NCBI GenBank assembly: GCA_028554795.2
Contig: CM068825.1
Location: 155,169,553 to 155,233,552 of the forward strand
Origin: Sinohyriopsis cumingii
Taxonomy: Eukaryota; Mollusca; Bivalvia; Unionida; Unionidae
Direction: 5' to 3'
Length of the DNA: 64,000 bases
Shown one piece after another: positions 5,699 through 25,828 of this stretch. The notes below the pieces were generated by a model. That model had not been told where the DNA came from, did not search any database, and saw nothing but the letters and a program-made list of their open reading frames with translations. A program made the position numbers and the translations under genes. How positions within the stretch are numbered: the stretch's first letter is position 1; each line of letters starts with the position of its first letter.

Positions 5699-5714
5699 GG
5701 CCCTGAAAAGGGCC
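5699..5714 (-). terminator. Histone-type 3' stem-loop (left TIR)
   Basis: On the minus strand it reads GGCCCTTTTCAGGGCC, a 6-bp stem with a TTTC loop, preceded by CCCAAA and followed by AGCCA. A purine element AAAAGAGA lies at 5684-5677, exactly 14 nt after the stem. It is positioned just downstream of the TIR gene. This is the layout of animal replication-dependent histone mRNA ends (SLBP site plus U7 snRNA site). Confidence 0.85.
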
Positions 5715-5744
5715 TTTGGGTTTATGTCAATATTAATATTAACA

Positions 5745-5934
5745 TAGATGGCATCTGTCACATCTTCTTCTTCTTCTTCTTAAACTCCTTCTAACTGCCG
5801 GTCCATACAAGTACCCTCTTGAGACATCCTTGTCTTTCTATGTAAACTCTCCTCATCCATTGACTAGCATCTGTCCTATCAACAACAGTCCACTTGGACC
5901 TGACATACATGAGCATGTCCGTCCTAAACATCAT
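5745..5934 (-). pseudogene. TIR gene, left copy (small basic protein)
   Basis: The left-TIR copy of the gene at 21469-21660, reading outwards to the element's end. The recognisable part includes LMYVRSKWTVVDRTD and QWMRRVYIERQGCLKRVLV. I recognise no family. Compared with the right copy it looks degraded at its C-terminal end (about one break). The two copies flank the element symmetrically and each is followed by a histone-type stem-loop. Confidence 0.55.
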
Positions 5935-6123
5935 GGAAGACACAAGGGTGGATGACTCAACTGTGGTCCACATCTTGAAGCGACGAGAATAGGTGAATCA
6001 ATGCAGTGAACTGCGCTTATTTATAGGTACAGGAAGGATTGAAACGGATTGAATTCATTCACCAATCCGAACACGCGTTACAAAATTCAGTCAGCTCGCA
6101 TCCAATCCGAAGAGAGCAGTCTG

Positions 6124-6144
6124 TGACGTCACGTGGTCTATATA
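6124..6144 (+). promoter_or_regulatory. Promoter with CRE/E-box and TATA
   Basis: TGACGTCACGTG (overlapping CRE palindrome TGACGTCA and E-box CACGTG) at 6124-6135, followed by TATATA at 6139-6144, about 50 bp before the ATG at 6193. The ACGTCA/CACGT core recalls the CACGTCC motif upstream of the two related genes near the right end. Function is inferred from motif and position. Confidence 0.6.
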
Positions 6145-6192
6145 GATTCGTTAGCGCTTGTGTGCAGTCAGTCTATGCGACAGTGATTCAAC

Positions 6193-6753
6193 ATGACGGA
6201 AACTCAGAAAACGATCCATTGGGGTGCACGAGCATGGGAGACTGCCCAAGGGAACCCGGACTTACTTTCAGAAGAGGTACATTGAGATTTTGTGGATTTT
6301 CTTACCTCGCAAGAATTTGTTCCGGAGCCTTCGTTACCTTCTTCATTACCGCAAGTGGAGAATTTTAGACAGAGACAGAAAGAAGAATTGGAGAAATTTA
6401 TGCAACGACAAAAGGAAGCGGAACAAGCTTTTCTCCTACAGCAACAGCAACAGTAACAAGAAGAGGTAAGAAAAAAACAACAGCAACAACAGCAAGAAGA
6501 AGTAGCAGCAAAGAAACAAGAGGGTGAAAATCAAACGGCTACGGTACTGTTGGACATTTTAGCGGAGTTAAGAAGTCTGAAACAAATGTATCAGACTTCT
6601 TTATCACGACCGAAGAGAATACGACCTTCCCGAGCTAAACACGCCAACCCTGTGACTAAGCCTGTCCTACCACCCTTAGTGATTTCAACCCAATCATCAG
6701 AAGTAGGCCTTGGCCGTGGCAAAGGCTTAAGGCAGTTAAAGTTGATTGGTTAA
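6193..6753 (+). pseudogene. Q-rich coiled-coil accessory gene (fossil)
   Basis: Reading begins at the ATG 49 bases after a TATATA box. The product is rich in Q, E and K with a polyglutamine/coiled-coil stretch in its middle and a proline-containing basic C-terminal part (RPKRIRPSRAKHANPVTKPV). It has the same style as the genes at 19643 and 20497 near the other end, and like them it ends with a histone-type stem-loop, here 28 nt past the stop. No domain is recognised. It looks broken, with about two breaks. Position next to the TIR and the distinct 3' end suggest an early or regulatory gene, which is inference. Confidence 0.6.
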
Positions 6754-6780
6754 ACTCACTCCTACACCATAAAGAAAAAA

Positions 6781-6796
6781 GGCCCTTTTCAGGGCC
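6781..6796 (+). terminator. Histone-type 3' stem-loop with ACCCA and U7-type element
   Basis: GGCCCTTTTCAGGGCC preceded by an A-run and followed by ACCCA, then AAAAGAAA at 6811-6818 (14 nt after the stem). It lies 28 nt after the stop of the Q-rich gene. Stem, loop, ACCCA cleavage context and downstream purine box all match the known histone 3' processing signal. Confidence 0.9.
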
Positions 6797-6819
6797 ACCC
6801 ACATTTCTCGAAAAGAAAT

Positions 6820-7045
6820 ACAATTTCAATTTGCCAATAACTCAAAAAAAAAAAACCCACCCAAAATACCCTTATAGTACGTGTCTGTGTATGCGTGCTT
6901 GAGTGTAGCTTCTTATTTTAAAATCAAAACTCAAAGACACTTACCTTATATCATTCATGTATTCTTCTATCCATTTTTTACGATCCAATTCACAATTCAC
7001 CACAGAACACTTTAAAAAGTTCGTACACTTCTTCTTTCTCATTAT
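6820..7045. other. Spacer between convergent genes
   Basis: Contains ATTTGCCAATA just after the purine box, a block shared with the downstream sides of the other stem-loops, then T/G-rich sequence like the right subterminal region. No gene. Confidence 0.6.
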
Positions 7046-7537
7046 TTAGTCTCTCTGTTTTTTGAATTTCTTCACCGTTTTTTCCTCATTTTCTTCCCTT
7101 CTTCTTTTCTTCTCCTGTTTCTTTGCCTCTTTTAAATAGAATTGTCTTCTTTCTTCCTCTTCTTCCTCTGAAGAATCCCTCTCTTCTTTCGAAGAATCCC
7201 TCTTTTCTTCCGAAGAATCCCTCTCTTCTTCTGAAGAATCCTTCTTTTCTTCTGACTCCTCTTGTTTCTTTTTTGGGCAATCTGGAGACCAATGTCCTTT
7301 TTCTTTACAATAATAACAGGTATCTTGACTTTTGTCTTTTTTAGCCCCTGTATTTTTTCTTTTTTGACGGTCTGGACACTCTGAAGACCAATGTCCTTTC
7401 TTCTGACAGATATAGCAAGTATCTTGACTTTTATCTCGAAAGGAAGGAGAGTAGTCCGTCGGCTGGTCTGAAGAGAATTTTCTAATGACCCCTCGCAAAG
7501 CTCTGACGAAACGTTCCATCTGGCTAGTCTCTTCCAT
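7046..7537 (-). CDS. CCHC zinc-knuckle protein of the Polinton
   Basis: About 163 residues from the ATG at 7537; an in-frame ATG at 7585 lies only a few bases from the TATA box and would fall upstream of the likely transcript start. Two retroviral-type zinc knuckles, CYICQKKGHWSSEC and CYYCKEKGHWSPDC, are separated by a short basic linker. They are followed by acidic repeats of the DSSEEERD type and a Lys/Arg-rich tail. Zinc knuckles bind single-stranded nucleic acid in other families; a role in genome or RNA binding here is inference. It runs against its neighbours, convergent with the Q-rich gene and divergent from PolB. The frame is open. Confidence 0.8.
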   Translation of the reverse strand: MEETSQMERFVRALRGVIRKFSSDQPTDYSPSFRDKSQDTCYICQKKGHWSSECPDRQKRKNTGAKKDKSQDTCYYCKEKGHWSPDCPKKKQEESEEKKDSSEEERDSSEEKRDSSKEERDSSEEEEEERRQFYLKEAKKQEKKRRREENEEKTVKKFKKQRD

Positions 7538-7589
7538 CGTTGTGCTCGGCTTGAGAGTGAAATGAATAGTGAAAGGACAAGACACACAC

Positions 7590-7602
7590 CCTTTTTATAT
7601 AC
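7590..7602 (-). promoter_or_regulatory. TATA-type promoter of the zinc-knuckle gene
   Basis: Minus strand GTATATAAAAAGG, about 55 bp before the ATG at 7537. The same TATAAAAAGG word stands before several plus-strand genes of this element. Confidence 0.7.
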
Positions 7603-7618
7603 GCTGGTTTGCCAAGAC

Positions 7619-7624
7619 TATAAA
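7619..7624 (+). promoter_or_regulatory. TATA box of the PolB gene
   Basis: TATAAA (then TTAG) 49 bp before the ATG at 7673. It lies about 20 bp from the divergent zinc-knuckle TATA, making a compact bidirectional promoter. Confidence 0.55.
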
Positions 7625-7672
7625 TTAGTCTATGGTGTTTAAACTTGAGTCATTTGACGTTTTGCACTCAAG

Positions 7673-10600
7673 ATGAAACGATCCTATTCATTCAAGAAGA
7701 AAGAAGAAGAAGAAGAAAGTAAGTAGCAGAAACGTGATCTATCGCCTCGTATCAGGGCTGAAATCTTGGCACAAATTCATGCCAGTGATTTTGAAGAGGA
7801 CATGAGTGAACCAGAATCTGAACCCTCTAAACCAAGTTCACCACCCTTAGTCAACCCTGAAAAGTACTATTCCATTCGAGAGACGGAAAAGCGCTCCTCT
7901 AGAAAATTTAGAACCACGGCTTACACCTACACGGTGAAGTTTAAAGATTTCAAGGCCGACTAACCCTTGGAGAAAGCAGAAGGGTTTATCACCGACATGT
8001 GGGATTCTTTGCTCACCGCACTCAAGCGACAATGTCAACCCAAAGAAGACGATCGCTTGACACTATCCATAGATCACGACGGTTTGAAATCCCCTGTTTG
8101 GATCGAGTTTAGCAGACCCGCAGAACTGACCCTTTCCAAAGTCATGGACAAGATACAACACGTACAACAATCTAATGACCAGTTTGACATCACCAATGGT
8201 AAAGCCACACTGAAAACGGCCCACGTCTCTCCTCCTCAAGGGACAGGACGCAAAAAGATGTTATTGGTGGACGACCTTCGCAACACCAAAATGAGTCTCG
8301 TCCGAATTAACAACCCTCAAGACCAGATGTGTTTAGCCCGTGCCATCGTGGTGGGACGAACCTATGCCAACAAGAACGACACGGTAGAATGGAAAAGAAC
8401 CTGGAACACTATTCAACAATCCGACCGAGCCAAACAACGAAATGAAGCAGAACTCCTGTTACAACAAGCCGGACTGTCCAAAGACACACCCTGTGGCATT
8501 CCTGAGATGCAAAAATTGCAAGATGCCCTAGCTCCACGCTACACCTTGAAAGTGCACCCTCAAGAAATGCGTGGAACTCTGTTGTTTCGAGGCCAAGATT
8601 TTAAGGACGGAAAATACATTCATGTCTATCATCACGATGACCATTTCGATACCATTACCAGTATCACTGGATTCCTGGGATACAGTTATTATTGTGAGAA
8701 ATGTGACTATGGTTATAACAATCGAGAGCAACACAAGCATTGTGGAATGAAATGCCCAAGATGTTTGGCATCTCCACCCGGTCTGAGCGATGGACCAGTG
8801 CCTTGTTCGACTTGTTTGCGCACGTTTGTCAGTCCTACCTGTTACCAACAACATCTGAAGACGCAAGGTTCACAGCAGAAATGTGCTTGTCAACTCTTGA
8901 GATTGTGCCCTACGTGTAGACAAGGCATACGTACCAATAGTACCAAGGCACACGTATGTTCAGGAAAAAAAAATGTCACATTTATCACCGCATCGTGGAC
9001 TTGGAACACCAATGCTACGTGCAAAAATACCAACCCCCACTAGAGAAAGAGGACGGTCACAAGAAGAAAGGCAATTTCATCTTTTTCGATTTCGAATGCA
9101 TGCAAGAGACCGGCATTCACATTCCTAATTTCTGCGTGGTTCATCGAGCGTGCGAGAAGTGCATTCAAGAACCTATCTTCAGTCATTGCCCTCACTGCAG
9201 CAAGATTCCCGGAGGGCGTGAAAAAATCTTTCGGGGACCAAACACGTTAGCCGATTTTGCCCAATGGGTCTTAGACCCCATCGACAAGACGTGGAGCCAA
9301 GAGGACATCGAACGTTACGGAGATTGTCATCGTCATGCCACGGTGATGGCTCACAATTTCTCCGGATACGATGGACAGTTTCTTCTCAGATACTATACGG
9401 AACAAGGCACCGAACGTCCTAAAGTCACTTTGAACGGAGCCAAAATCATTTTCATGCAAGTGGGACAAGTACAGTTTAAAGATTCGATGAGTAACTTGGC
9501 CATGCCTTTGAGTCGAATGCCTAAAACGTTTGGAATGACAGAAATGGCTAAAGGGTACTTTCCACACTTTTTCAATACGGAAGCCAATCAACACGCCGTT
9601 CTACCCCATTTATCTGAGGCTCACTATTACGACCCCGACAACATGCATACCGAACAACGAGAAGCTTTCTACGCTTGGTACAAGGCTCATGCCTCTGACC
9701 CCTTCGACTTTCAAGAAGAAATGTTAAAGTATTGTCGTTCCGACGTGGACATTTTACGACGTTGCTGTGGAAAATTTCGAGAACTGTTCATGGAACACGG
9801 AGGGGTCGATCCTTTGAAAGAAGCTTGCACCATTGCCAAAGCGTGTTCCTTAGTGTACCGCCAACGATTCATGCCTGAAAACACCGTGGCTGTCATCAGT
9901 CCTCGAACGACCCACTATGTCAAGCGTCAATACTCGGTCAAAGCCCTACGTTGGTTACAGTACTTGTGCGACAAGGAAGACAAATGGATTCAGCATGCCC
10001 GCAACGGAGGAGGCGAAAAGACCATCGGAACGTATTCGGTAGATGGCTGGGACCTGGAAAACCCCAAGATCGTGTACGAGTTTAACGGTTGCTTATTTCA
10101 CGGATGTCCCGTCTGTTACCCTGACCGTGACACTAAAAATCAGTTTTTGCAACGAACCATGGAAGACTTGTACCAGGACACTTGTCAGCGACGCCTAGAA
10201 CAGCAAGGATACCAAGTGGTGGAAATGTGGGAACACGAGTACGATCACCGTTTGAAAACCGATCCCGAGTTTAAACGCCTCGTGGAAAGTTACCAGTTCA
10301 TGGACCCGCTGAACCCGAGGGATAGTTTGTACGGAGGAAGGACCAATGCCACCTGTTTGCTGTACCAAGCCGACGAAGAGAAAGGAGAAGAAATCAAATA
10401 CTTGGACGTGTGTTCGCTGTATCCCTACGTGTGCAAATATTGTCGCTTTCCTGTAGGGCACCCGCAATTGTTGACGGAACACATCGACCTGAAAAACATT
10501 CGACAATACGAAGGCTTGATCAAGTGTAAAGTTTTGCCTCCCACGAACCTATACCATCCCGTCTTACCTCACCATTGTCAAGGCAAACTGATGTTTCCCT

Positions 10601-11733
10601 TGTTCCGTACTTGTGCCGAAACGTGCAACCAGGACCAACCTTGCCATCACAGCCAGGAAGAACGTGCCTTGACGGGAACCTGGGTCAGCGTGGAATTGTT
10701 CAAAGCTCTGGACATGGGATACCAACTGTTAGAAGTGTACGAAATTTGCCACTTTCCCAAGACACAACAGTACCACAAGGGTGACCCTACTCAGAAAGGC
10801 ATTTTCGCCGACTACGTGGATGACTTTTTGAAACTGAAGCAAGAAGCCAGCGGCTATCCTTCCTGGTGTCACACTCCCGAAGACCAAATACAATTCAAAG
10901 AGAAATACTATGCACAAGAAGGCATCTCTTTAGACCACATCGAAAAAAACGAAGGCAGGCGATCGTTTGCCAAAGTGATGTTAAATTGCTTGTGGGGTAA
11001 AATGGCACAACGACCGTGTTTACCCAAGACGGAATATTTGACAGAACCTTCCCGCTACTTCCAGATGATACACGACAAAACCAAATACATGAAACACGTG
11101 GATGTCGTTCGAGAGAATTTGATCTTGGTCAATTACGAAGAAGATCTGGACTTTGTACAAGACGACCCTTTTGGAAATGTCATCATTGCGGCTTACGTGA
11201 CAGCTCATGCTCGCTTAAAATTGTACGAAGCTTTAGAACTGTTAGAAGAACGCGTCCTGTACTTTGACACGGACAGTTGCATTTACATCCATCACCCGAT
11301 TTAACAGCACCCTGACATCGAAGGAGACCGTTTAGGAGCCTGGACAGACGAGCATCCCGACGACAAGATTCTAAGTTTCGTCAGTGGTGGTCCCAAAAAT
11401 TACGGCTACGAATACCGGGACAAACAAGGAGAAGTGCACACGACGTGCAAAGTGAAAGGACTGACTCTGAATCATCGTACCAGTCGAGTGGTCAACTTTG
11501 GGGTATTGAAAGAAGCCTTGCAATCGGGAGAGGATGGAAACTTTAAAGTGACCACCTATCAACCGAACAAGATTGTACGTTTACCCACTCACCACATCGT
11601 CAGTCGACCCTTGGAAAAAGTCTATCAAATTGTATACCAGAAGCGAGTGCGACTTCCCAATCACTTCTTCTTACCGTACGGTCACGTCGGTATTGGTCTG
11701 TATATAAAAAGGAACCCTAGGCAAGATCGATAG
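7673..11733 (+). pseudogene. Family B DNA polymerase, protein-primed type (fossil)
   Basis: Fossil polymerase gene of about 4 kb, the family's usual size. After an acidic N-terminus and a Cys-rich zinc-binding stretch (CEKCDYGYNNREQHKHC, CSTCLRTF) come the 3'-5' exonuclease motifs: FFDFECMQETG (DxE), NFSGYDGQFLL and YCRSDVDIL. Then come the polymerase motifs LDVCSLYPYV (motif A), KVMLNCLWGKMAQ (motif B) and YFDTDSC (motif C), and the conserved end GGPKNYGYEY. It is likely to have replicated the element from its terminal repeats. It looks broken, with about four breaks, so this copy is not functional as it stands. Confidence 0.95.
11701..11712 (+). promoter_or_regulatory. TATATAAAAAGG promoter
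   Basis: TATATAAAAAGG at the end of PolB and 26-48 bp before the next gene's candidate starts. Same word as the other core promoters of the element. Confidence 0.65.
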
Positions 11734-11737
11734 GTCA

Positions 11738-12145
11738 TTGTTCATTGAAGTAACTTACCATGTCGTTGACGAAGAAGAAACCAGATTGGTTAGGAGTCAA
11801 ATGTTGGACATCACCGAGACCAGGGTTTTGAGGCTTGGACACAAGAGGTGGCCCAGTATGCACGAGAGTTATTCAAGGAAAAAAGTTACTTTTCAACCTG
11901 TGTTAGTGACGGTGCCAGAAGAACCCGTCACCCAGGACAGGACTGTCGTGGACAGGCCTGAAAGACCCTTTCGGGAGGACACTTGTGTGACCTTACCCCC
12001 TACTATAGAACTGGTTAGAACTTTACCCAAAACATGTTGTACAGACACTTGTGTTTATTCCACGTTCATGGTTATCATGTGCCTTTTATTCTTGTACTTA
12101 AGCCTTTGGCTTTTATGTATTTTTGTCTTTCGTATTCATGTTTGA
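11738..12145 (+). CDS. Small single-pass membrane protein of the Polinton
   Basis: 135-residue frame with a polar N-terminal two thirds and one strongly hydrophobic C-terminal segment (FMVIMCLLFLYLSLWLLCIFVF) ending four residues later, the layout of a tail-anchored membrane protein. No family is recognised. The start is uncertain: another ATG with good context at 11760 lies in a different frame. It is followed by AATAAA at 12153. It has its own promoter and poly(A) signal, so it may be a separate transcription unit. Confidence 0.5.
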   Translation: MFIEVTYHVVDEEETRLVRSQMLDITETRVLRLGHKRWPSMHESYSRKKVTFQPVLVTVPEEPVTQDRTVVDRPERPFREDTCVTLPPTIELVRTLPKTCCTDTCVYSTFMVIMCLLFLYLSLWLLCIFVFRIHV

Positions 12146-12152
12146 AACATTC

Positions 12153-12158
12153 AATAAA
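12153..12158 (+). terminator. AATAAA polyadenylation signal
   Basis: CAATAAACGTGTTCTGG 8 bp after the membrane-protein stop, with a GT-containing stretch after it. The upstream unit therefore ends by ordinary polyadenylation, unlike the stem-loop genes. Confidence 0.7.
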
Positions 12159-12173
12159 CGTGTTCTGGAAAAG

Positions 12174-12180
12174 TATATAA
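12174..12180 (+). promoter_or_regulatory. TATA box of the ATPase gene
   Basis: TATATAA, 49 bp before the ATG at 12229. Confidence 0.6.
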
Positions 12181-12228
12181 ACTCTTGTCTTGTTTGTTTT
12201 TCGTGTCACAAGTGACATTTCTCACACC

Positions 12229-13131
12229 ATGGCTACCTCTGCTGTCTCTGCTCCCTCTTCCTCTACTGTCAAAGTCATCGACGAACACTTAGATCGTGCC
12301 AGTTGGGAGGCTTTGTATCTTCGCCATCCCTTTAACATGCTCATTGCTGGACCTAGCGGTTCAGGCAAAACCGAATTCGTCAAACGTTTGATCGAACATA
12401 AACATCATTTGATCGATCGACCCCCTCAACGAATCGTATGGTGTTACAAAGAGTGGCAATCGGCGTACAGCCTCTTGCGAGAATGTCAAGGCGATTCCAT
12501 CGTGTTTGTGGAAGGCATTCCTAAAGAAGACGATGGCATCGTCTCTGACTCCCGTCTAACCCATTTGGTCATTTTCGACGACATGTTAGGAGAAGACGAA
12601 GAAGAAATTAAACTGTGGTTCACGCGCAAAGGGCATGACCGTAATGCCAGTGTCGTTTACATCACCCAAAATTTGTTTCAACAAAGTAAAGCCCATCGCA
12701 CCATCAGTCTCAATGCGCATTACGTGGTCTTGTTTAAAAGCCCTCGAGATAAATCGCAAGTGCAAGTCTTAGCCAAACAGTTAGGAACGCCTTGGCTGAC
12801 TCAGGCGTACGACGATGCCACTCAAACTCCACACGCCTATTTACTCGTCGATTTGAAACCTACGACCCCCGAGGATTTGCGATTTCGTACCCACTTGTTT
12901 CACCACTGGTGCCAAGACGGAGGGCCTGTCCTGTACACGTCTCCGTCCTCGACTTCATTTCACTCCCCATTTAAAAAATCTATAAAAACCTCAGACCCTT
13001 TTTCGTCTGTCTCACTCCAGTGCGAACATGACGTCCCTTCAGCCACATCTTCCCGTCAAATTGATTCGTGCCTTGTATGGCATCAGTCGAGAAAAAGATC
13101 CACAAACACGAGCTCGTGTCTTACTAGCTAG
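12229..13131 (+). CDS. A32-type genome packaging ATPase
   Basis: The start MATSAVSA is chosen because it sits in a strong ACCATGG context ~50 bp after the TATA box. Walker A is GPSGSGKT at about residues 42-49. Walker B is HLVIFDDML, about residue 115. ARKGHDRN-type sensor (FTRKGHDRN) and VVYITQNLF follow, as in FtsK/HerA-like ATPases of Polintons, adintoviruses and poxviruses. In the family it powers DNA entry into the capsid. The frame is open; it runs about 100 bases into the following gene's start, so its natural C-terminus may be nearer residue 250. Confidence 0.93.
   Translation: MATSAVSAPSSSTVKVIDEHLDRASWEALYLRHPFNMLIAGPSGSGKTEFVKRLIEHKHHLIDRPPQRIVWCYKEWQSAYSLLRECQGDSIVFVEGIPKEDDGIVSDSRLTHLVIFDDMLGEDEEEIKLWFTRKGHDRNASVVYITQNLFQQSKAHRTISLNAHYVVLFKSPRDKSQVQVLAKQLGTPWLTQAYDDATQTPHAYLLVDLKPTTPEDLRFRTHLFHHWCQDGGPVLYTSPSSTSFHSPFKKSIKTSDPFSSVSLQCEHDVPSATSSRQIDSCLVWHQSRKRSTNTSSCLTS
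12981..12990 (+). promoter_or_regulatory. TATAAAAACC promoter
   Basis: TATAAAAACC, 47 bp before the ATG at 13028 and inside the end of the ATPase frame. Confidence 0.65.
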
Positions 13132-14009: not shown

Positions 14010-14291
14010 ATGTCACCCTCCAGAAAACCCCAAGGAAAGAAAAGGAAAGGACTGCCGCCACGTTTAGCCAAACATGGGGACATGTTATCTGTCCTGTCCA
14101 AAGCTTCTCCACCCCTACGAAAAAAACTCATTCAAACGGCCTCCAAAGAGGTCATCGATACCGTGTGCGAATGTTGTTTGAACGTTTTGAAAGGCACGAT
14201 CCCTTTGTCCAAACACCAGAAACAATGCTTAGGCAAACATCGTCACGTTCTTCGCCAAATGGTTCAAAAGAAAATTCCCATTCGTCACTAA
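14010..14291 (+). CDS. Small conserved Polinton helical protein
   Basis: 93 residues: a basic tail (SPSRKPQGKKRKG), then helices with the pattern LRKKLIQTASKEVIDTVCEC, CLNVLKGTIPLSKHQKQCL and KHRHVLRQMVQKK. Polintons of cnidarians and other animals carry a gene of the same look (two helices, a CxxCxxNVLKG-like core, basic end) just before a short glycine/leucine-rich peptide, as here. Its role is unknown; a virion protein is likely from its place in the capsid block. The frame is open. Confidence 0.75.
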   Translation: MSPSRKPQGKKRKGLPPRLAKHGDMLSVLSKASPPLRKKLIQTASKEVIDTVCECCLNVLKGTIPLSKHQKQCLGKHRHVLRQMVQKKIPIRH

Positions 14292-14297
14292 AAGAAG

Positions 14298-14396
14298 ATG
14301 TTAGTGCAACGTGGAGGTATTTTACCTCTCTTGTTAGGCCACATACTGAAAGGAGTCTTGGGAACCATGTTGGGAGGACTGGTGGGAGCAAGATAA
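14298..14396 (+). CDS. Short Gly/Leu-rich hydrophobic peptide
   Basis: A 32-residue frame starting 6 bp after the preceding stop: MLVQRGG, then hydrophobic LPLLLGHILKGVLGTMLGG and ending GAR. In related Polintons a similar GGFLPLLL...G.LG segment is fused to, or follows, the preceding helical protein. It resembles a membrane-active peptide. The stop codon overlaps the promoter of the next gene. Its short length limits confidence. Confidence 0.55.
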   Translation: MLVQRGGILPLLLGHILKGVLGTMLGGLVGAR

Positions 14397-14401
14397 AAAG
14401 G
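14392..14401 (+). promoter_or_regulatory. GATAAAAAGG promoter variant
   Basis: GATAAAAAGG, 44 bp before the ATG at 14445, in the same spacing as the other core-gene TATA words. Confidence 0.5.
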
Positions 14402-14444
14402 CCTCGGAAGTTCCAAGATCTCAGAATCGACCCCTGACAACCCC

Positions 14445-15089
14445 ATGGAAGGACGAAAACTAGCTTTAGTGCCTTACAAACGATGGATGGAATACCATCG
14501 GTGACAAGAACAACACACCCCGCATTTACCTCCCAATCCCCATTTGAGCGAGATGTCCCAGTTACAACACGAATTGCAGTCCTTGATGGATCGCCAAGAT
14601 TTGTCCGAAACAGAAAAATCGCAAAAGTACGGTCAACTCTTGCAACGACTGCAACTCTTTCACCAGAAAGCTTTAGACAAAACAGCTCTACCCACTCTGA
14701 AAGGTTTTAAGACCTTGATGAAAAGTCTAGCACCATCACCAGTACCAGTACCAGTACCAGTACCACCAGTACCCGTGACCAAGACAGAAAAAGGAGAAGA
14801 AGAGGAAGGGTTTCAAACTCCACCAGAAAAAGTACGCAAGTTAACAACACCACCTACCTCCAGAATTGGATGGATTAAAAAGATGATGGCCACCCCTTCT
14901 TCCTCACAGGAGAAAAAGAAAGTGAAGACAGAAGTGAAGACAGAAGTGAAACAAGAACCGATATCCCCCGCTCAGACATCCTTCTCCTCTTCAACACCTA
15001 TTGCTGGCCGCACACGCAAAGCATTGCAATCCAAGAAAATACACCAAGAGAAAAAGAGTAGCATCCTCCAAGAGTGGGTGTCTTATTAA
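14445..15089 (+). pseudogene. Polinton protein with VPYKRW N-terminus (fossil)
   Basis: Begins EGRKLALVPYKRWMEY, a short motif that opens a gene commonly found beside the integrase in animal Polintons. It is followed by a coiled-coil stretch (LQHELQSLMDRQDLSETEKS), a proline-valine repeat (PVPVPVPPVPV) and a Lys/Ser-rich tail. The function is not known; a structural role is suggested by position. It looks broken, with about one break. Its stop is 20 bp before the integrase ATG. Confidence 0.65.
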
Positions 15090-15109
15090 CACACCAACCA
15101 AAACAAAAA

Positions 15110-16219
15110 ATGGAAAAAGTCTTAGCCGGCATTTACTACGATCCCTCCCATCCTGCAGGTTACGCAGGAGTTCAAAAATTGTATCGTGCTGCCAAAACGC
15201 GACTGAAAAGTCTCCGTTTACCTCAAGTGCAACGATGGTTACAAGAACAAGCTACCTACACTTTACACAAACCCATTCGACGCAAGTTTGCCAGAAGTCG
15301 CACCCGAGTGGAAGGCATCGATCATCAATGGCAAGCCGATTTAGCCGATGTCTCTCATTTGGCCAGCTACAATCGTGGCTACAAATATTTGTTTTGTGTC
15401 ATCGACGTCTTTTCCAAATTTGCTTGGGTCGTACCCTTGACTTCCAAATCGAGCAGCGAGTTAGTGCGAGCCCTGCAACGGGTGTTGAAACAAAGCGGTC
15501 GTCAACCTCTTCGATGGCAAACGGACAAAGGCACCGAATTTCTGAACCAAGCTTTCCAAAAAGAATTAAAGAAACGTGACATTCATTTTTTTACCACCGA
15601 GAATCCCGAAACCAAAGCCAGCATCGTGGAACGTTTTCAACGCACTTTGAAAGAACGCATGTGGAAATATTTTACGCATCACCACACTCTGAAGTACATC
15701 GACATCTTACCGTAACTGGTGCAAGCGTACAACCAATCTTACCATCGAAGCATCGGACGTGCCCCGCAAGACGTGACACACGACAACGAAGTGCTGGTGT
15801 TTGAGCGCCTGTTCGGTACGTCCAGGACGAGGGCTGTCCCCAAGAAAAGTGGAGTGTTGGCCGTAGGAGATTGGGTGCGCATTGGCAAAACCAAACGCAC
15901 TTTCGACAAAGGTTACTTACCTAACTGGACGACCGAATTGTTTCGCGTCACTGGACGAGTGCATGGCCGTCATCCTGCCGTCTATAAATTGGAAGACATG
16001 AACGGAGAAGTGCTCAAAGCAACGTTTTATTTGCCCGAGTTACAACGTGTCACCAAAAAAGAAGACGACGTGTACGACATCGAAAGCATTCTCGAACGCA
16101 GAACCCGTAAAATGGGCAAACGACGTGTCAAAGAAGTCAAAGTACGTTGGAAAGGATATCCACCCAGTTTTGATTCTTGGATCGACGCTTCGCAAGTCAT
16201 CGACTATAAAAAGAAGTGA
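15110..16219 (+). pseudogene. Retrovirus-like integrase with chromodomain (fossil)
   Basis: About 370 codons, normal for Polinton integrases. The rve catalytic core shows the three acidic residues in QADLADVSHL, WQTDKGTEF and ETKASIVERF. The core is followed by the SH3-like region (VGDWVRIGKTKRTFDKGY) and a C-terminal chromodomain (VYDIESILERR, VKVRWKGYPPSFDSWI). In the family it joins the TIR ends to target DNA with a 6-bp stagger, in agreement with the duplication seen here. The chromodomain may steer insertion to chromatin marks, possibly relevant to landing in a satellite. It looks broken, with about one break. Confidence 0.95.
16205..16213 (+). promoter_or_regulatory. TATAAAAAG promoter
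   Basis: TATAAAAAG overlapping the integrase stop, only 20 bp before the ATG at 16225 and so unusually close; it may serve the minor-capsid gene at 16638 as well. Confidence 0.5.
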
Positions 16220-16224
16220 CCATC

Positions 16225-16641
16225 ATGCCCTTTCACACAGCAGACGCAGCTACGTCGACCACTCCTCCTTCACCTAGTTCTTCTGTGCAAGATTTACAAA
16301 AACAACCCTTGTGGGTGTGGTGTGGAGAACGTGTGCCTAAAACGCAAATCGTCTTTTTCTGCCAAATCTTCGTGGTGTATTGTGTCATCGGGGCAGCCAT
16401 CGCCAATTTGAGTTTGCAACAAGGAGACAAACAATTGTGGACCATTTTATTGAGCAGTTGCAGCGGTTACCTGCTTCCTAATCCCTCCCTGAAATTCACC
16501 TCGAACGGGAACCCCGGGAACCTTGTGTCCAGTGCCAGTGCCAGTCACCACTTCAATCACAACCAGAACCCCATTTTGGGCGGAGACACGCCTCTGACGT
16601 CCAGTAACCCCTCAGACAGCCACAGAACTCTGGAATTATGA
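16225..16641 (+). CDS. Conserved Polinton membrane protein
   Basis: 138 residues from ATCATGCCC at 16225. After a Ser/Pro-rich start comes WVWCGERVPKTQIVFFCQIF, then a membrane helix (VVYCVIGAAIANLSL), a short loop and a second hydrophobic segment (LWTILLSSCSGYLLPNPSLK). This two-helix unit ending in GYLLPNP is a familiar companion of the Polinton capsid genes; its role is not established. The tail is Ser/Asn-rich. The stop overlaps the ATG of the next gene (ATGA), suggesting coupled expression. The frame is open. Confidence 0.8.
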   Translation: MPFHTADAATSTTPPSPSSSVQDLQKQPLWVWCGERVPKTQIVFFCQIFVVYCVIGAAIANLSLQQGDKQLWTILLSSCSGYLLPNPSLKFTSNGNPGNLVSSASASHHFNHNQNPILGGDTPLTSSNPSDSHRTLEL

Positions 16642-17561
16642 GTCACCAAAACCAATTTTACTTAACCTTACCCAGTGACAGTTCCATGGAGGTGTTCCCC
16701 AAGAACACGTTGTGCTGTTACACGGCCAAATTACCTCAAGCCATCCCCTTAGATCACGAAGCCCATTGGGAAGTGGCATTAGTAGAAATGATTCACCCGA
16801 CCCAAGTCCTCAATGTCCTTCCCAATCAAACTTTTTTTGATGTGGAAGTTCATGACGAACAATTGCAACAGTGGATGGATAGCAATGTCAAATATGACAA
16901 GAAAACCCGTACACAAAAGTACACCACCTATCACTTGTTCATTTCCCCAAGCTATTATTTTAGTGGTCAACATTTGGTCAGCACCATAGCCTCCAGGTTT
17001 AATGCCGTGTTTCTGAAAGCTTTGGAGCTTGTTAACAAAAGTGTCACCATGGAGTACCACAAAACAGCTCGTCGCTTCTTGATGAAATTTGAACGGAGTA
17101 AAATCCTGTCCATTTTATTTTGTCCTGAATTGTATGACATGTTGGGCGGAGACATGAACCTGAGAATGAGCATGATGAAGAAAAGCGAATTACCCATCGT
17201 TTACGACAACGAGTCTTTTAGCAAGTTATTTCGTGCCCCGGTAGAACTGAACCAAGGACTGAATTTGATGTTTGTGTACTCCGATGTGGTGGAGTATAAC
17301 GTGGTGGGACACACCTCCGTACCGTTACTGCGTGTCATTCCTTTCAAAGTGGATTCTGCCACGAACACTGACGAGGAAGGTGGAAACACTTACCACGTCC
17401 ACCGCGAATTTGTCCATCCTCACTATTTGCCTGTCAGTAAGTCGTATTTGGACACGGTCAACATTACTATAAAAGGAGATTTGGGACAAAATATTCCATT
17501 CACCAAAGGAAAAGTCACGGTGAAACTCCATTTTCGAAAACGGTTCTCTCACGATTCGTAA
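16638..17561 (+). CDS. Penton-like minor capsid protein (single jelly roll)
   Basis: 307 residues opening FYLTLPSDSSMEVFPKNTL and continuing to LPQAI and HWEVALVEMIHPT, the standard N-terminal signature of Polinton and adintovirus minor capsid proteins. Such proteins form a single jelly roll and occupy capsid vertices. Length matches the family. It overlaps the membrane-protein stop by 4 bp and precedes the pVI-like gene. The frame is open. Confidence 0.9.
   Translation: MSHQNQFYLTLPSDSSMEVFPKNTLCCYTAKLPQAIPLDHEAHWEVALVEMIHPTQVLNVLPNQTFFDVEVHDEQLQQWMDSNVKYDKKTRTQKYTTYHLFISPSYYFSGQHLVSTIASRFNAVFLKALELVNKSVTMEYHKTARRFLMKFERSKILSILFCPELYDMLGGDMNLRMSMMKKSELPIVYDNESFSKLFRAPVELNQGLNLMFVYSDVVEYNVVGHTSVPLLRVIPFKVDSATNTDEEGGNTYHVHREFVHPHYLPVSKSYLDTVNITIKGDLGQNIPFTKGKVTVKLHFRKRFSHDS
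17468..17476 (+). promoter_or_regulatory. TATAAAAGG word inside the minor capsid gene
   Basis: TATAAAAGG, 89-97 bp before the pVI-like ATG. Same word as the other promoters but inside a coding region, so it may be chance. Confidence 0.35.
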
Positions 17562-17564
17562 GTC

Positions 17565-17981
17565 ATGTATCCAGTGTACCGAGGGGTTGCTCGACAGCGA
17601 GGACACGGTTTAGGAGATATGTTAAAATCGGCCTTTCGTTCGGTGGCCCCGGTGTTGAAACCGATGGTGACACGCGGATTGCACGCCTTGAAAGATGCGG
17701 CACTGACGCAAGGCAAAGAATTTCTCCAAAATGTCATCATCGACAAACAAAACCCTAAAGAAGCCTTCATGAGGGCAGGCAAAAATGTCTTGCTGCAAAC
17801 GGGCAAAGACATTTTGGGTCACCGAGAAACACCTATAAATGCCCTGCACGCTACCGAGTCAGGCATTCAGCAAGGACAAGGCAGAAAGAGACGACGAAGA
17901 AAACACCCTTTCACCAGACTTCAAGCGAGAAAGGCCAAGAAAAGAAGAACCGTTCGAGACTTAGACGTTTTCGATTATTGA
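17565..17981 (+). CDS. pVI-like virion protein
   Basis: 138 residues: MYPVYRGVARQRGHGLGDML, then an amphipathic segment (KSAFRSVAPVLKPMVTRGL), a central helical part and a strongly basic tail with RKRRRRK and KKRRTVRDLD. The start and basic end match the Polinton gene compared with adenovirus protein VI, a membrane-lytic protein inside the capsid. A Gly-Leu-Gly followed by an amphipathic helix near the N-terminus fits that idea; membrane activity is inference. It lies between minor and major capsid genes. The frame is open. Confidence 0.75.
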   Translation: MYPVYRGVARQRGHGLGDMLKSAFRSVAPVLKPMVTRGLHALKDAALTQGKEFLQNVIIDKQNPKEAFMRAGKNVLLQTGKDILGHRETPINALHATESGIQQGQGRKRRRRKHPFTRLQARKAKKRRTVRDLDVFDY

Positions 17982-17998
17982 GAAAAGAGACAAAAAAA

Positions 17999-19312
17999 AT
18001 GATGCACCGAGAATCTTGCGCTTGTTCCAAGACGGAACTGGATCTGTTTGCCATGCCCCCCACGATGATGACGATGCAAGAATCCCAGTGGGTGGAATTT
18101 CACCCCGTCTCCTCACTGACCGATTCCGCTCCCATCGAGTTTGAAATCAAAGGACAGCCCGAAGATTACATCGATCTGAATAGCAGTTACTTGTACCTGA
18201 AAGTCAAAATTCTAGATAAGACTGGAGGTGCTATAGACGATGAAGCAGTAGCTCCCGTCAACAATTTCATGCATTCCTTGTTCAGTGGAGTGGACTTGTA
18301 CTTGAATAACAAACTGGTCAGTAGCAGCATGGATACTTACCCTTATCGTGCCTACCTGGAAAATCTCTTGACGTACGGAATAGATGCCAAGAACACTCAT
18401 CTCAATGCCTGTGTGGTATTGGAAGCTGACGAACCTACCAAGTTTGAAATATTGGAAACTGATGAAAAGAAAGACAACAATGATGGATTTGTAGAACGAA
18501 GAAAGAGAATCACGGGAGCCGACAAAAGTTTAGAACTGATGGATCGTTTGCATTTGGACATGTGGTTGCAAGAAAAGTATTTGCTGAACGGGGTGGATGT
18601 CCGCCTGAGACTGAATCGTAGCAGTGCCGCTTTCCATTTGATGGCTGATAGTGACGGTTACAAAACCAAAATCCTAGAAGCCAGACTCTACGTACGCCGT
18701 GTGGAAGTGTTACCTAAAGTGGGAAACGACATCAGTCAGACGTTGAGCAGAACGACTGCCAAGTATCCCATACGACGCGTGGAAGTGAAAACCTTCACCA
18801 TTCCCAAGGGACAGCGATCCATGATCGAAGAACATCTGTTCCAAGGACAGTTACCCAAACGTTTGATCGTTGGTATCGTCGAGAATACAGCCTTCAACGG
18901 AGCTGCCGAAAAAAATCCTTTCTACTTTCAACACTTTGGCGTGTCCAAAATCGAAGTCAATCGCGATGGCAAGACCTTGTGTACCCGACCTTTCGAACCT
19001 GACTTTACCAAGAAGAATTACTTGAGATCGTACTTGTCCTTGTACGAAGCCACCGGACACTTAGGAACCAATACCAGTCACGGTATTGCGTACGAGGATT
19101 ATGCAGGAGGCTACGCTTTGTGGGCTTTCGATTTCACTCCAGACCAAGGCAGCGACGAGGGACATTTCCACCCTATAAAATCCGGCCAGATTCGTGTGGA
19201 AATTCAGTTTAAAGACCGAGACCCTGATGAAACGGTGAACGTCATCCTGTATGCAGAATTCGATAATACCATAGAAATCAACAGTTTGAGAGAAGTCATC
19301 CTAGATTACTAG
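17999..19312 (+). CDS. Major capsid protein (double jelly roll)
   Basis: 437 residues from the first ATG of ATGATG at 17999; the frame is open a little upstream without an ATG. The N-terminal part has WVEFHPVSSLTDSAPIEFEI, YIDLNSSYLYLKVKI and NNFMHSLFSGVDLYLNNKLV, the hallmark of the animal Polinton major capsid (the F54H12.2-like family). Mid-region YPIRRVEVKTFTIPKGQRS and the C-terminal IRVEIQFKDRDPDETVNVIL fit the second jelly roll. Such proteins assemble as trimers into an icosahedral shell. A poly(A) signal lies about 110 bp after the stop. Confidence 0.95.
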   Translation: MMHRESCACSKTELDLFAMPPTMMTMQESQWVEFHPVSSLTDSAPIEFEIKGQPEDYIDLNSSYLYLKVKILDKTGGAIDDEAVAPVNNFMHSLFSGVDLYLNNKLVSSSMDTYPYRAYLENLLTYGIDAKNTHLNACVVLEADEPTKFEILETDEKKDNNDGFVERRKRITGADKSLELMDRLHLDMWLQEKYLLNGVDVRLRLNRSSAAFHLMADSDGYKTKILEARLYVRRVEVLPKVGNDISQTLSRTTAKYPIRRVEVKTFTIPKGQRSMIEEHLFQGQLPKRLIVGIVENTAFNGAAEKNPFYFQHFGVSKIEVNRDGKTLCTRPFEPDFTKKNYLRSYLSLYEATGHLGTNTSHGIAYEDYAGGYALWAFDFTPDQGSDEGHFHPIKSGQIRVEIQFKDRDPDETVNVILYAEFDNTIEINSLREVILDY

Positions 19313-19317
19313 AAACC

Positions 19318-19407
19318 ATGGAAGACTGTTATCCCTCTTTACCTAGTGGAGAAACTTTTAGTGTTGCATTGTTGTTAAAAAATGTTAGAGTTGTTGTTTC
19401 GTGTTAA
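19318..19407 (+). CDS. Possible 29-residue ORF after the capsid gene
   Basis: Begins 6 bp after the capsid stop in an ACCATGG context: MEDCYPSLPSGETFSVALLL and ends VVVSC. Acidic start and hydrophobic end. No homology is recognised; the good start context and position just before AATAAA are the only support. Confidence 0.3.
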   Translation: MEDCYPSLPSGETFSVALLLKNVRVVVSC

Positions 19408-19417
19408 GTGATTATTG

Positions 19418-19423
19418 AATAAA
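19418..19423 (+). terminator. AATAAA polyadenylation signal of the capsid unit
   Basis: GAATAAAAAATGTTGTGTTTTG follows the capsid gene, with a GT-rich element just after. It is the only end signal seen after the ATPase-to-capsid block. Confidence 0.75.
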
Positions 19424-19554
19424 AAATGTTGTGTTTTGAAAAAAATGCCTTTGTCTTTTGTTTAGCTATAAGAATGTTGGATTGATGCTCTTTCATTTCT
19501 TACTATCCCTCTCATGACACTCACTAAACGTTGCGACTCAAAAACCGTGTGGGA

Positions 19555-19580
19555 GATGTTTTCCTTCACGTCCGCGCTTT
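19555..19580 (+). promoter_or_regulatory. Shared upstream element, copy 1
   Basis: Contains TTCACGTCCGCGCTTT preceded by GATGTTTTCC; differs from the copy at 20410-20435 at one base in 26. It stands ~65 bp before the coiled-coil gene start at 19643; the TATA position holds a weak AATTTAAG. Confidence 0.65.
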
Positions 19581-19642
19581 GAATTTAAGAACCGGGTTGT
19601 TTCCAGTCTAACCATCCATTGTCGACTCATCCTCCTACGAAG

Positions 19643-19999
19643 ATGTGCTCCAAACTAGCTAAACTCAACGAAGCCTACGTGAATTTGCATAGGGTCAGAC
19701 ACAGTCTGATACCGAAGCCAGAAGAAATAGAGAATGTGAGAATGTTAAAAATCACTGAAGACCTGATAGAAGAGCTCTTCAGAGAAGAAATGAACAGGGA
19801 AAAAGAAGAATGGACAGAGAAGTACAGACTTCAGAGACAGCAGCAACAACAACAACAAGAGCAGCAGCAGCAACCTGACGCTGACAGAGGCCTTGTCGAT
19901 TGTCGTATCAACACCAAAGAGTTCTTCTTCTCTTTCCGAAGAAGCAGACCTATCGCCAGAAAGTCTATCCTCAGAGGACATCGCATTCTTAGAAACTAA
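19643..19999 (+). CDS. Coiled-coil Q-rich accessory protein
   Basis: 118 residues from the ATG at 19643. The N-terminal part (KLAKLNEAYVNLHRVRHSLI) resembles the start of the gene at 20497. A charged coiled coil (EELFREEMNREKEEWTEKYRLQRQ) runs into a polyglutamine/Glu stretch and then an Arg-rich tail (FRRSRPIARKSILRGHRIL). No domain is recognised. It has its own upstream element and ends with a histone-type stem-loop 29 nt after the stop, so it forms a self-contained cassette repeated in the following gene. A nuclear, early role is inference. Confidence 0.65.
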   Translation: MCSKLAKLNEAYVNLHRVRHSLIPKPEEIENVRMLKITEDLIEELFREEMNREKEEWTEKYRLQRQQQQQQQEQQQQPDADRGLVDCRINTKEFFFSFRRSRPIARKSILRGHRILRN

Positions 20000-20027
20000 A
20001 AAGAATGCCATAGCAAACAAAAAAAAC

Positions 20028-20043
20028 AGCCCTTTTCAGGGCT
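20028..20043 (+). terminator. Histone-type 3' stem-loop with ACCCA and U7-type element
   Basis: AGCCCTTTTCAGGGCT, in which the outer pair is A-T instead of G-C, so the pairing is kept. It is followed by ACCCAA and by AAAAGAAA at 20058-20065, exactly 14 nt after the stem. It is 29 nt after the stop of the coiled-coil gene. Confidence 0.9.
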
Positions 20044-20095
20044 ACCCAATACTCTAGAAAAGAAATAACAATCGATTTGCCAATGTGTGTAGGTA

Positions 20096-20409
20096 GAGTA
20101 GTGTGAAAATAAACACTAACTCTTTTTTAAAAAAAAATGTGAGGGTATGTGTTTGTGTATTTGTGTTTGTAAGTGGTTAAGTAAGTTGGTATGGATAGTA
20201 GATTAAAATGATGTCTTTTTTGGTGTTTGAGGTGTATATTTGGAGTTAGATTGGATTGCTTTGCGTATGTGTATAGTCTATTGAAGTGATTTATAAAAAA
20301 TTTTAAAATAGTGATGGGTAGCATAAAAAAGTGAGTGAGTGTTTCTTTTTAGGTCGGCGCGTTGTTTTATGTTCATGATCTAGGTAAGATCAATTTTATG
20401 TTTTTAGGG
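20096..20409. other. G/T-rich spacer between the two accessory cassettes
   Basis: Begins with AGTAGTGTGAAAATAAACAC, also found after the next stem-loop, followed by GTGTTTGTGTATTTGTGTTTG-type sequence with strong strand asymmetry (few C). No gene. Confidence 0.6.
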
Positions 20410-20444
20410 GATGTTTTCGTTCACGTCCGCGCTTTCACTATAAA
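20410..20444 (+). promoter_or_regulatory. Shared upstream element, copy 2, plus TATA
   Basis: GATGTTTTCG then TTCACGTCCGCGCTTT at 20410-20435, followed by TATAAA at 20439-20444, 53 bp before the ATG at 20497. Confidence 0.7.
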
Positions 20445-20496
20445 TTGAAACTCGTTCGGCAGTCCAGCTACCCTTGTTGATTGATCAAGACCAAAA

Positions 20497-20860
20497 ATGA
20501 ACACGAGACTGGAGAAACTGTTGGAACTTCATGTGCATCTGGAATATGCCAGGCGCATATTAAATGAACTGGCCGCGGAAGCCATTGTGGAATAGGGAAG
20601 GATAAGAGAGGAGGAGGAAAGAAGAAACAAAGAAGAGGAGGAGAGAAGATATAAAGAAGAGGAAAGAAGATACAAAGAGGAGGAAAGAAGATGCAAAGAA
20701 GAGGAGGAGGAGGAAAAGGAGAGAAGAAGAAGAAATTTCAGAATCCCAGAGAGCGAAAATTGGGATTCTGAAGCGACATATCCTGCCTCTGCTCTCTCCC
20801 CCCAAAAGGTAAAATGTAATTGGGGGATAAGATGTGTATGCTGCGCCAGGCCTGGAAGGT
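20497..20860 (+). pseudogene. Second coiled-coil accessory gene (fossil)
   Basis: Starts MNTRLEKLLELHVHLEYARR, similar in style to the gene at 19643, and continues into a long purine-only stretch that would code a Glu/Arg/Lys coiled coil of the RRYKEEERRYKEEE kind. It ends at a histone-type stem-loop and shares its upstream element and downstream sequence with the previous gene, so the two are duplicated cassettes. It looks broken, with at least one break. Function unknown. Confidence 0.5.
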
Positions 20861-20903
20861 GCCACCATTAACCAGGTGTCCATGAAGTTCCAAACAAAAA
20901 AGC

Positions 20904-20919
20904 AGCCCTTTTCAGGGCT
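20904..20919 (+). terminator. Histone-type 3' stem-loop with ACCCA and U7-type element
   Basis: AGCCCTTTTCAGGGCT followed by ACCCAA and AAAAGAAA at 20934-20941 (14 nt after the stem). Nearly identical to the signal at 20028 over more than 100 bp downstream. Confidence 0.9.
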
Positions 20920-21049
20920 ACCCAATACTCTAGAAAAGAAATAACCATCAATTTGCCAATGTGTAGGTAGAGTAGTGTGAATATAAACACTAACTCTTTT
21001 TTAAGATAGTGTGAGGGTATGTGTTTGTGTGTTGGTGCTTGTAAGAGCT

Positions 21050-21440
21050 AAGGTATGTTTGTGTGAATAGTAGATTATGGATTTTGTTTATTGTTTCTTA
21101 GCGTAGGTGAAGAGTATAGTTAGGGTTCTGTAAGCGCTCACGTACGATTGTGTGGATATTAGATTATGGATTTTGTTTATTGTTTCTTAGCGTATGTGTT
21201 TGTGTGTTTGTGTTTGTGTATTTGTGTTTGTACCCGCTCACGTACGATTGTGTGGATAGTAGATTATGGGTTTGTTTATTGTTTCTTAGCGTATGTGGAG
21301 AGCATAGTTTGGGTTTTGTAACCGCTCACGTACGATTGTGTGGATAGTAGATTATGGATTTTGTTTATTGTTTCTTAGCGTATGTGTTTGTGTGCTTGTA
21401 TTTGTGTGTTTGTGTTTGTGTGTTTGTGTTTGTACCCGCT
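21050..21440. repeat. ~95-bp tandem repeats, right subterminal region
   Basis: Four imperfect copies built round GATTGTGTGGATAGTAGATT, ATGGATTTTGTTTATTG and TTTCTTAGCGTATGTG, separated by TTTGTGTTTGTG blocks. They lie just inside the right TIR and have no equivalent inside the left TIR. Possible replication or transcription control region; this is inference. Confidence 0.8.
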
Positions 21441-21468
21441 CATTGAGTCATCCACCCTTGTGTCTTCT

Positions 21469-21660
21469 ATGATGTTTAGGACGGACATGCTCATGTATGT
21501 CAGGTCCAAGTGGACTGTTGTTGATAGGACAGATACTAGTCAATGGATGAGGAGAGTTTACATAGAAAGACAAGGATGTCTCAAGAGGGTACTTGTGTAT
21601 GGACCGGCAGTTAGAAGGAGTTTAAGAAGAAGAAGACGTGACAGATGCCATCTATGTTAA
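21469..21660 (+). CDS. TIR gene, right copy (small Arg-rich protein)
   Basis: About 63 residues from the first ATG inside the TIR (an open frame extends upstream of the TIR to 21382). The body is LMYVRSKWTVVDRTD and QWMRRVYIERQGCLKRVLVY, and the end is VRRSLRRRRRDRCHLC, strongly basic. No family is recognised. The gene reads outwards, ends 24 nt before the histone-type stem-loop and about 330 bp before the element terminus. Basic charge suggests nucleic-acid binding; that is inference. Confidence 0.5.
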   Translation: MMFRTDMLMYVRSKWTVVDRTDTSQWMRRVYIERQGCLKRVLVYGPAVRRSLRRRRRDRCHLC

Positions 21661-21684
21661 TATTAATATTAACATAAACCCAAA

Positions 21685-21700
21685 GGCCCTTTTCAGGGCC
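21685..21700 (+). terminator. Histone-type 3' stem-loop (right TIR)
   Basis: GGCCCTTTTCAGGGCC preceded by CCCAAA, followed by AGCCA, with AAAAGAGA at 21715-21722 (14 nt after the stem). It ends the TIR gene. Confidence 0.87.
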
Positions 21701-21991
21701 AGCCATATTTCTCGAAAAGAGATAGCCTTTCCATTGCCTACCCCTTTTTTAAAAAAAAATTTAAAAAAAAAAAAAATCCCATGTTCAATTTCCCTTGACG
21801 CTATAAAGTCCCACCCTGTTTAAATTCCTTTGACGCTAAACCGTCCCACGATTTTTCTCCATGTTAATTTCCCTTGACGCTAATCTGACCCACGATTTTT
21901 CTCCATGTTAAATTTCCCTTGACGCTAATCTGACCCAGGGGTCTCTGTAATGCTAATTCCCATTGACGGTAAAGTGCCCCCATTTACTACT

Positions 21992-22265: not shown

Positions 22266-25828
<3,563 letters not shown>

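Follow-up and report, generated by a model that had tools for sequence, protein, structure and literature searches.

Replication-dependent histone 3' ends are, to our knowledge, an almost private signature of histone genes. According to PMC9756948, processing of this type needs the stem-loop, the downstream box and the U7 small nuclear ribonucleoprotein (snRNP) and is linked to S phase, and human H2AC18 undergoes dual processing from overlapping poly(A) and histone 3' signals. Mavericks were noted in every mollusc genome analysed, as stated in PMC10294476. Here we describe an element at about 5.0-22.4 kb of a 64,000-nucleotide stretch of the bivalve Sinohyriopsis cumingii (contig CM068825.1, positions 155,169,553 to 155,233,552, forward strand; hereafter the window, to which coordinates refer), which is a Polinton/Maverick and holds a family B DNA polymerase (PolB), an A32-like ATPase, an rve integrase, a probable capsid gene and terminal inverted repeats (TIRs). 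It is highly probable that this element runs its accessory genes (A to D in the window, E and F in sister copies) on the host signals for replication-dependent histone expression, and these genes are probably switched on with DNA replication and give messages without poly(A) tails.

The element shares with metazoan replication-dependent histone genes the stem-loop, the cleavage letters, the spacing, uninterrupted open reading frames (ORFs) and a U7-type purine box, which we label the histone downstream element (HDE). The promoter element of its genes C to F is like that of host H2B and H1. In contrast to the host histone genes, the element genes have no histone domain match, are mobile and lie dispersed rather than in tandem arrays. 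PolB, the ATPase, the integrase, the probable capsid gene and the long TIRs are as in Polintons/Mavericks and adintoviruses, whereas the histone-type 3' ends and the promoter element appear to set it apart from those described so far. Human H2AC18 resembles it in the hairpin plus HDE and possibly, at gene C, in a downstream poly(A) signal (PMC9756948), but is a host histone gene and no mobile element. Literature searches, with subscription papers mostly outside their coverage, found, among the records listed, no report of histone-type promoters or 3' ends in Polintons or adintoviruses; for the 3' ends, a preliminary description of this DNA had likewise known of none. In a keyword check the preprint PMC11071308 mentioned neither histone nor promoter.

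Histone-type 3' Ends of the Element Genes

The preliminary description had placed five hairpins at 5699 on the minus strand and at 6781, 20028, 20904 and 21685 on the plus strand, and all five were found there. When the window was scanned with Infernal for all Rfam families, RF00032 (Histone3) matched each of them, with E-values from 9.6e-9 to 8.6e-4, far above the noise (the next-best Histone3 match in the window scored 20.3 bits, E 0.62). The stem-loop of gene B (6781..6796, plus) reached 41.2 bits and those of gene A in the left TIR (5699..5714, minus) and of its copy in the right TIR (21685..21700, plus) reached 35.6 bits each, so that three of the five attained the Rfam gathering score of 34; the stem-loops of gene C (20028..20043, plus, 31.0 bits) and gene D (20904..20919, plus, 28.0 bits), both with an A-T outer pair, remained under it. 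The HDE reads AAAAGAGA at both TIR sites and AAAAGAAA at B, C and D. In agreement with the earlier claims, AAAAGA begins 14 nt past the stem at every site, and the letters ACCCA or AGCCA stand at all five; in replication-dependent histone mRNA, cleavage takes place at a CA 4-5 nt after the stem. The full grammar (the stem, A[CG]CC[AC], 8-10 nt and AAAAGA) occurred five times in the window and not once in 300 dinucleotide shuffles.

All five sites are present, but they do not count as five independent ones. The hairpins at 5699 and 21685 represent a single site that is copied in both terminal repeats, and the 20028 and 20904 sites are paralogous (96% identity over 69 nt, with high identity for more than 100 nt beyond the signal), so the window holds three independent sites. 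The reported distance of 24-45 nt from the gene end was seen at four of the five hairpins (24 nt at the right TIR copy, 27 at B, 28 at C and 32 at D), and the left TIR copy lies 76 nt past its present frame. The swap of the outer pair from G-C to A-T, which had been read as selection on structure, does keep the pairing; because it is specific to gene classes C and D, we did not count it as repeated compensation, for which it is weak evidence.

As the hairpins lie near the element ends, with two of them inside the terminal repeats, they might be taken for the element's own DNA or RNA signals (for an origin, packaging or recombination) that look like histone ends by chance. Their place on the coding strand just past genes, together with the CA site, the HDE and the host spacing, speaks against such a role, as does the pairing of many hairpins with a histone promoter element (see below), and we regard it as extremely improbable.

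The Same Signals End the Host Histone Genes

The host genome (2.9 Gb in 1138 contigs) was searched for its own histone genes, which gave 662 histone candidates of all kinds. The H1 protein has one match at 98% identity, and its relatives in named records come from molluscs, mostly bivalves. The histone genes lie in tandem units of about 8.3 kb in the order H3-H4-H2B-H2A-H1, and in the two units examined each of the five is closed by a hairpin built in the same way, with a 6-bp stem, namely GGCCCT-TTTT/TTTC/TTTA-AGGGCC or, in H1, GGTCCT-TTTC-AGGACC, followed 14-15 nt past the stem by AAAAGA (AAAAGG in H2A). The spacing is 14 nt in host H3, H4 and H2B, equal to that of the element sites, and the G-C form of the element stem-loop equals the host H2B stem-loop in 16 of 16 letters. 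Judged by stem, box and spacing, the 3' signals of the element are those of the host's own histone genes.

A Promoter Element Shared with Host H2B and H1

A host histone promoter element that the preliminary description had missed lies upstream of genes C and D and of the sister genes E and F. This element, GATGTTTTCNNTCACGTCCGCGCT, is 24 bp long with 22 specified positions and emerged when the promoters of the host histone genes and of the element genes were compared. The promoters of host H2B and H1 contain it with no mismatch, that of H2A has it with 4 mismatches (in reverse) and that of H4 with 7, and the best match in 2000 shuffled promoters had 6 mismatches; because shuffled promoters come that close, the match in H4 lacks significance. 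Within the window only gene C (19555..19578, plus, GATGTTTTCCTTCACGTCCGCGCT) and gene D (20410..20433, plus) are preceded by the element, in both cases with 0 mismatches at the 22 positions shared with H2B and H1, and A and B are without it.

The same division was seen among sister copies. Within 1.5 kb upstream of the 30 best genomic RF00032 loci (L013-L042, with gene classes assigned by eye), and allowing up to 2 mismatches, the promoter element was present at 11 of 11 E/F-type loci and at L020 and at none of the 17 A/B-type loci. Among the 60 hairpin sites described below, with up to 3 mismatches and at most 600 nt upstream, it preceded 10 of 11 C, 9 of 10 D and 6 of 8 E genes and none of the A (0/10), B (0/13) and F (0/6) genes, the count for F reflecting that full-length F frames fill the 600-nt stretch.

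Genome-wide, the exact promoter element occurs 24,957 times, against 0 for the control. The first 73 listed copies make up a sample that is unconditioned on the hairpin. Forty-two of them lie in the first 3.08 Mb of contig C1, and 33 of these have the exact hairpin core on the same strand 404-765 nt downstream (one pair of promoter copies sharing one hairpin); in the remaining 9 the core deviates by 1-2 mismatches and AAAAGA is present. On the opposite strand no core followed any of the 42, and random positions gave 1.2%. The next 31 copies comprised 28 with the exact core plus AAAAGA, 2 with none and one in which AAAAGA accompanies a variant with the TTTA loop known from host H2A. Overall, 61 of the 73 have the exact stem-loop, 10 have it with 1-2 mismatches and 2 are without it; the 10 near cores keep all six pairs in four cases, five pairs in five and three pairs in one.

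The region between the divergent genes A and B (5974..6192) contains TATA boxes, two CCAATCCGAA boxes (6062 and 6102) and TGACGTCA. With the promoter of host H3 it has ACGGATTGAA and GCATCCAAT weakly in common; by a rough estimate this sharing of 9-10-mers is little above chance, and it was dropped as evidence. The motif ACGTCCGC is presumably tied to the factor HINFP, a connection that literature search did not confirm.

Copies of the Signal throughout the Host Genome

The exact hairpin core GCCCTTTTCAGGGC occurs 56,759 times in the host genome, a total that includes the small number of host H2B genes sharing it, and its reversed pattern occurs 3 times. A genome scan with RF00032 returned 75 scored matches, all above the cut-off, out of 589,472 first-look candidates. 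By reading, a recognisable element gene lies just upstream in 28 of the 30 best loci; of the other two, L020 matches the element by blastn and L039 was left without a class. Sister copies therefore carry the hairpins, as the 28 loci, the first 60 core sites and the promoter-linked sites bear out.

The 60 sites are the first of the 100 listed places with the exact core, a condition that makes the stem uninformative in this sample. The outer pair is G-C in 38, A-T in 21 and unpaired in 1 (59 of 60 kept), and AAAAGA stands at 14 nt in 54, at 15 nt in 4 and is missing in 2. The cleavage letters are ACCCA in 36, AGCCA in 16, ACCCC in 5 and ACTCA in 3. In 54 of the 60 sites an ORF of at least 50 codons terminates 19-63 nt upstream (median 26.5 nt), some of these ORFs having no start before the border of the stretch. 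A script sorted 58 sites into the six gene classes A-F, and the other two, L108 and L115, were B-like and A-like by eye.

Divergent hairpin pairs 1066-1104 bp apart, the signature of A and B, numbered 18 among the 100 listed hairpins. Scaled to 56,759 occurrences, this suggests about 10,000 left ends of the element and, if each left end stood for 17 kb, about 6% of the genome, both figures being extrapolated from one chromosome end; the copies in the host genome probably number in the thousands.

Conservation of the Signals and of the Proteins

Within each of the six gene classes of the 60-site sample, the HDE columns were 93-100% identical. Upstream of the stem, identity by class was 83-93%; in the downstream flanks it was 82-95% at +23..+60 and 59-86% at +61..+98. 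The ratio of nonsynonymous to synonymous divergence (dN/dS), computed with extreme-value pairs excluded and for open frames with a hairpin only, a choice that lowers it somewhat, had medians of 0.118 for gene A (20 ORFs, 174 pairs, median dS 0.99), 0.378 for B (6 ORFs, 15 pairs), 0.095 for C (7 ORFs, 19 pairs), 0.171 for D (8 ORFs, 28 pairs) and 0.082 for E (7 ORFs, 18 pairs, dS 1.22); for F a single pair out of 3 ORFs gave 0.227. The open copies of the element genes are under purifying selection, and their proteins are constrained over a span of divergence across which the 3' signal has also been retained.

These values bear on a reading in which pieces of host histone genes were captured and have since been copied passively as unused, hitch-hiking remnants. 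The element signals do resemble the host's own, the 3' regions of C and D are alike to beyond the signal, and 10 of the 73 promoter-linked hairpins have 1-2 mismatches, 6 of the 10 having lost at least one pair, as in decaying copies; hairpin decay is seen in these 73 sites alone, which belong to the classes with the promoter element. However, the signals are kept in six gene classes, at a median dS that in A and E is close to 1 or higher, the HDE is better conserved than its flanks, and promoter element and 3' end remain linked on one strand. Passive carriage thus seems very improbable.

Proposed Mechanism and Points against It

In the mechanism that we propose, genes C, D, E and F would be transcribed together with the host histone genes from behind the 24-bp element that is also found in the H2B and H1 promoters, and A and B, which are arranged divergently, have TATA and CCAAT boxes. 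Every accessory gene is followed by the stem-loop of histone genes, by cleavage letters of the CA type and, at the host spacing, by a purine box of the U7 type; SLBP would bind the hairpin, the U7 snRNP would direct cleavage after ACCCA, at the CA site, and the resulting mRNAs would have no poly(A) tail. Expression would then follow S phase or come from SLBP-rich oocytes and embryos. The probable capsid gene appears to keep an ordinary poly(A) signal, AATAAA with a GU-rich stretch at 19418..19423 (plus), so the element genes may fall into two sets, one coupled to replication and one polyadenylated, the likely benefit being one of timing, with the products of A-F appearing during host DNA replication and the capsid gene relying on polyadenylation.

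It could also be that the hairpins are present and the mRNAs are mostly polyadenylated downstream, so that the hairpin gives a minor isoform at most, as in some mammalian histone genes. The dual processing of human H2AC18 (PMC9756948) provides a precedent, and past the gene C hairpin there are an AATAAA at 20108 and an ATTAAA at 20202, with a GU-rich stretch. Because the AATAAA lies only 65 nt past the stem, poly(A) use at gene C is possible. However, neither AATAAA nor ATTAAA was listed shortly downstream of the A, B or D hairpins, and the U7-type box is maintained as it is in the host; we consider predominant polyadenylation unlikely for the accessory genes in general.

Besides this AATAAA, several results weigh against the use of the histone signals by the element. 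For A and B, the samples in which the hairpin was seen to be kept had all been selected by the hairpin itself. Among the host promoters themselves, that of H3 is without the promoter element and that of H4 differs from it by 7 mismatches, a level also reached by shuffles. Six fragments of related elements from other sources (59 kb in total) showed no hairpin signal, although, as they are fragments, its absence from those lineages is only suggested. In the host assembly the U7 snRNA model RF00066 had no match at 1e-3, and two U7 patterns occurred less often than their controls (23 versus 42 and 159 versus 293). Of 27 U7 candidates that were folded (20 of the 23 of one pattern, and 7 from the 100 listed out of 159 of the other), none was convincing and none had a convincing U7 3' hairpin; the best of the 20 that were scanned scored 21.0 bits against a cut-off of 34. 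The candidate with the best-looking 5' end, L197, was rejected, as by eye it resembles antisense element sequence. SLBP (PF15247) likewise had no match at 1e-3 in the host assembly, in an exon-by-exon search whose control was equally silent. Both searches are weak, and the presence of the same signals in the host histone genes speaks for a U7/SLBP pathway in this animal.

We give about even weight to the broader proposition that the element has adopted the host histone programme, with the 3' end in all accessory genes seen and the promoter in most, and that it supplies most of the SLBP/U7 target sites of the genome, up to about 57,000 hairpins and about 25,000 promoter elements. It may also recruit or compete for factors of the histone locus body and link its life cycle with S phase or with oocytes and embryos rich in SLBP. 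If a virus-like element does use histone 3' ends along with the matching promoter element, mobile elements would have a new route by which their expression follows the replication of DNA, and the element mRNAs would escape poly(A)-selected RNA sequencing. The copies would also offer a very large set of natural variants for dissecting the rules of histone promoters and 3' ends, and they raise the testable question of how the host manages histone synthesis with a genome whose hairpin sites mostly belong to a parasite.

Gene Content of the Element

The left TIR (5414..5960) pairs with the right one (21443..21991), the arms being complementary in blocks of 225 nt (100%), 154 nt (99%) and 147 nt (96%). 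Arrays of a 41-bp unit were observed at both element ends (4998-5516 and 21869-22387). The left copy of gene A (5791..5973, minus) is a 60-amino-acid ORF that stops early in comparison with the 76-77 amino acids of several sister copies; the partial second copy at the right TIR (21382..21660, plus) has an ORF of 92 amino acids with GT-rich repeats upstream. By reading the sequence, gene B (6193..6753, plus) has two in-frame stops here and gene D (20497..20871, plus) an in-frame TAG at 20593; B is open in sister copy L042 (183 amino acids) and D in several sister copies (98-125 amino acids). Gene C (19643..19999, plus) encodes 118 amino acids. None of the proteins of genes A-F had a Pfam match above the cut-offs, and no histone domain was found in them; the gene A protein has an Arg-rich tail, and the D and E proteins are highly charged.

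The core genes, all on the plus strand, are the PolB gene (8956..11304, DNA_pol_B_2, PF03175, E 5.6e-43), the A32/FtsK-like packaging ATPase (12229..13131, PF04665, E 8e-6), the integrase core (15110..15715, rve, PF00665, E 6.9e-15) and the gene at 17999..19312, which probably encodes the major capsid protein. The latter protein had neither a Pfam match nor a PDB sequence match; it has 1024 homologs at E 1e-3, and the named ones among the 120 listed come from bivalves and one bacterial assembly. A CCHC zinc-knuckle gene with a charged repeat region and without a histone-type end lies inside the element at 7046-7537 (minus).

Relatives of the Element and Other Features of the Window

Relatives of the element in genome contigs were found at six loci (L007-L012), all within bacterial assemblies, some of them of tubeworm and Bathymodiolus symbionts, and these contigs are probably contaminating DNA of the animal hosts. 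Because the relative fragments lack the signals, the acquisition of the latter may be lineage-specific. In the mussel-associated Polinton L008, a weak match to the twister-P1 ribozyme was observed at 11734-11798, about 480 nt past the capsid gene (28.9 bits, gathering score 67.2). A divergent fragment of a second Polinton-type integrase lies outside the element at 27461-27823 (minus) and matches the integrases of L007, L008, L011 and L012.

Viral contigs yielded no relatives by capsid profile, ATPase profile or gene A. Six stretches of viral contigs with a hairpin plus box were counted as chance, since none matches Rfam at E 0.01; two of them, L001 and L004, carry phage-like genes, as judged by reading. 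The promoter core was also met in two GC-rich viral contigs and set aside, L155 being without the hairpin core at up to 2 mismatches and L156 having one match with 2 mismatches.

Elsewhere in the window, pieces of a reverse transcriptase at 2452-3503 (minus) are presumably LINE-like, judging by their motifs, and the ORFs at 55133-59339 (plus) appear to encode a reverse transcriptase with RNase H followed by a tyrosine-recombinase-like protein, an arrangement that suggests a DIRS-type retroelement.

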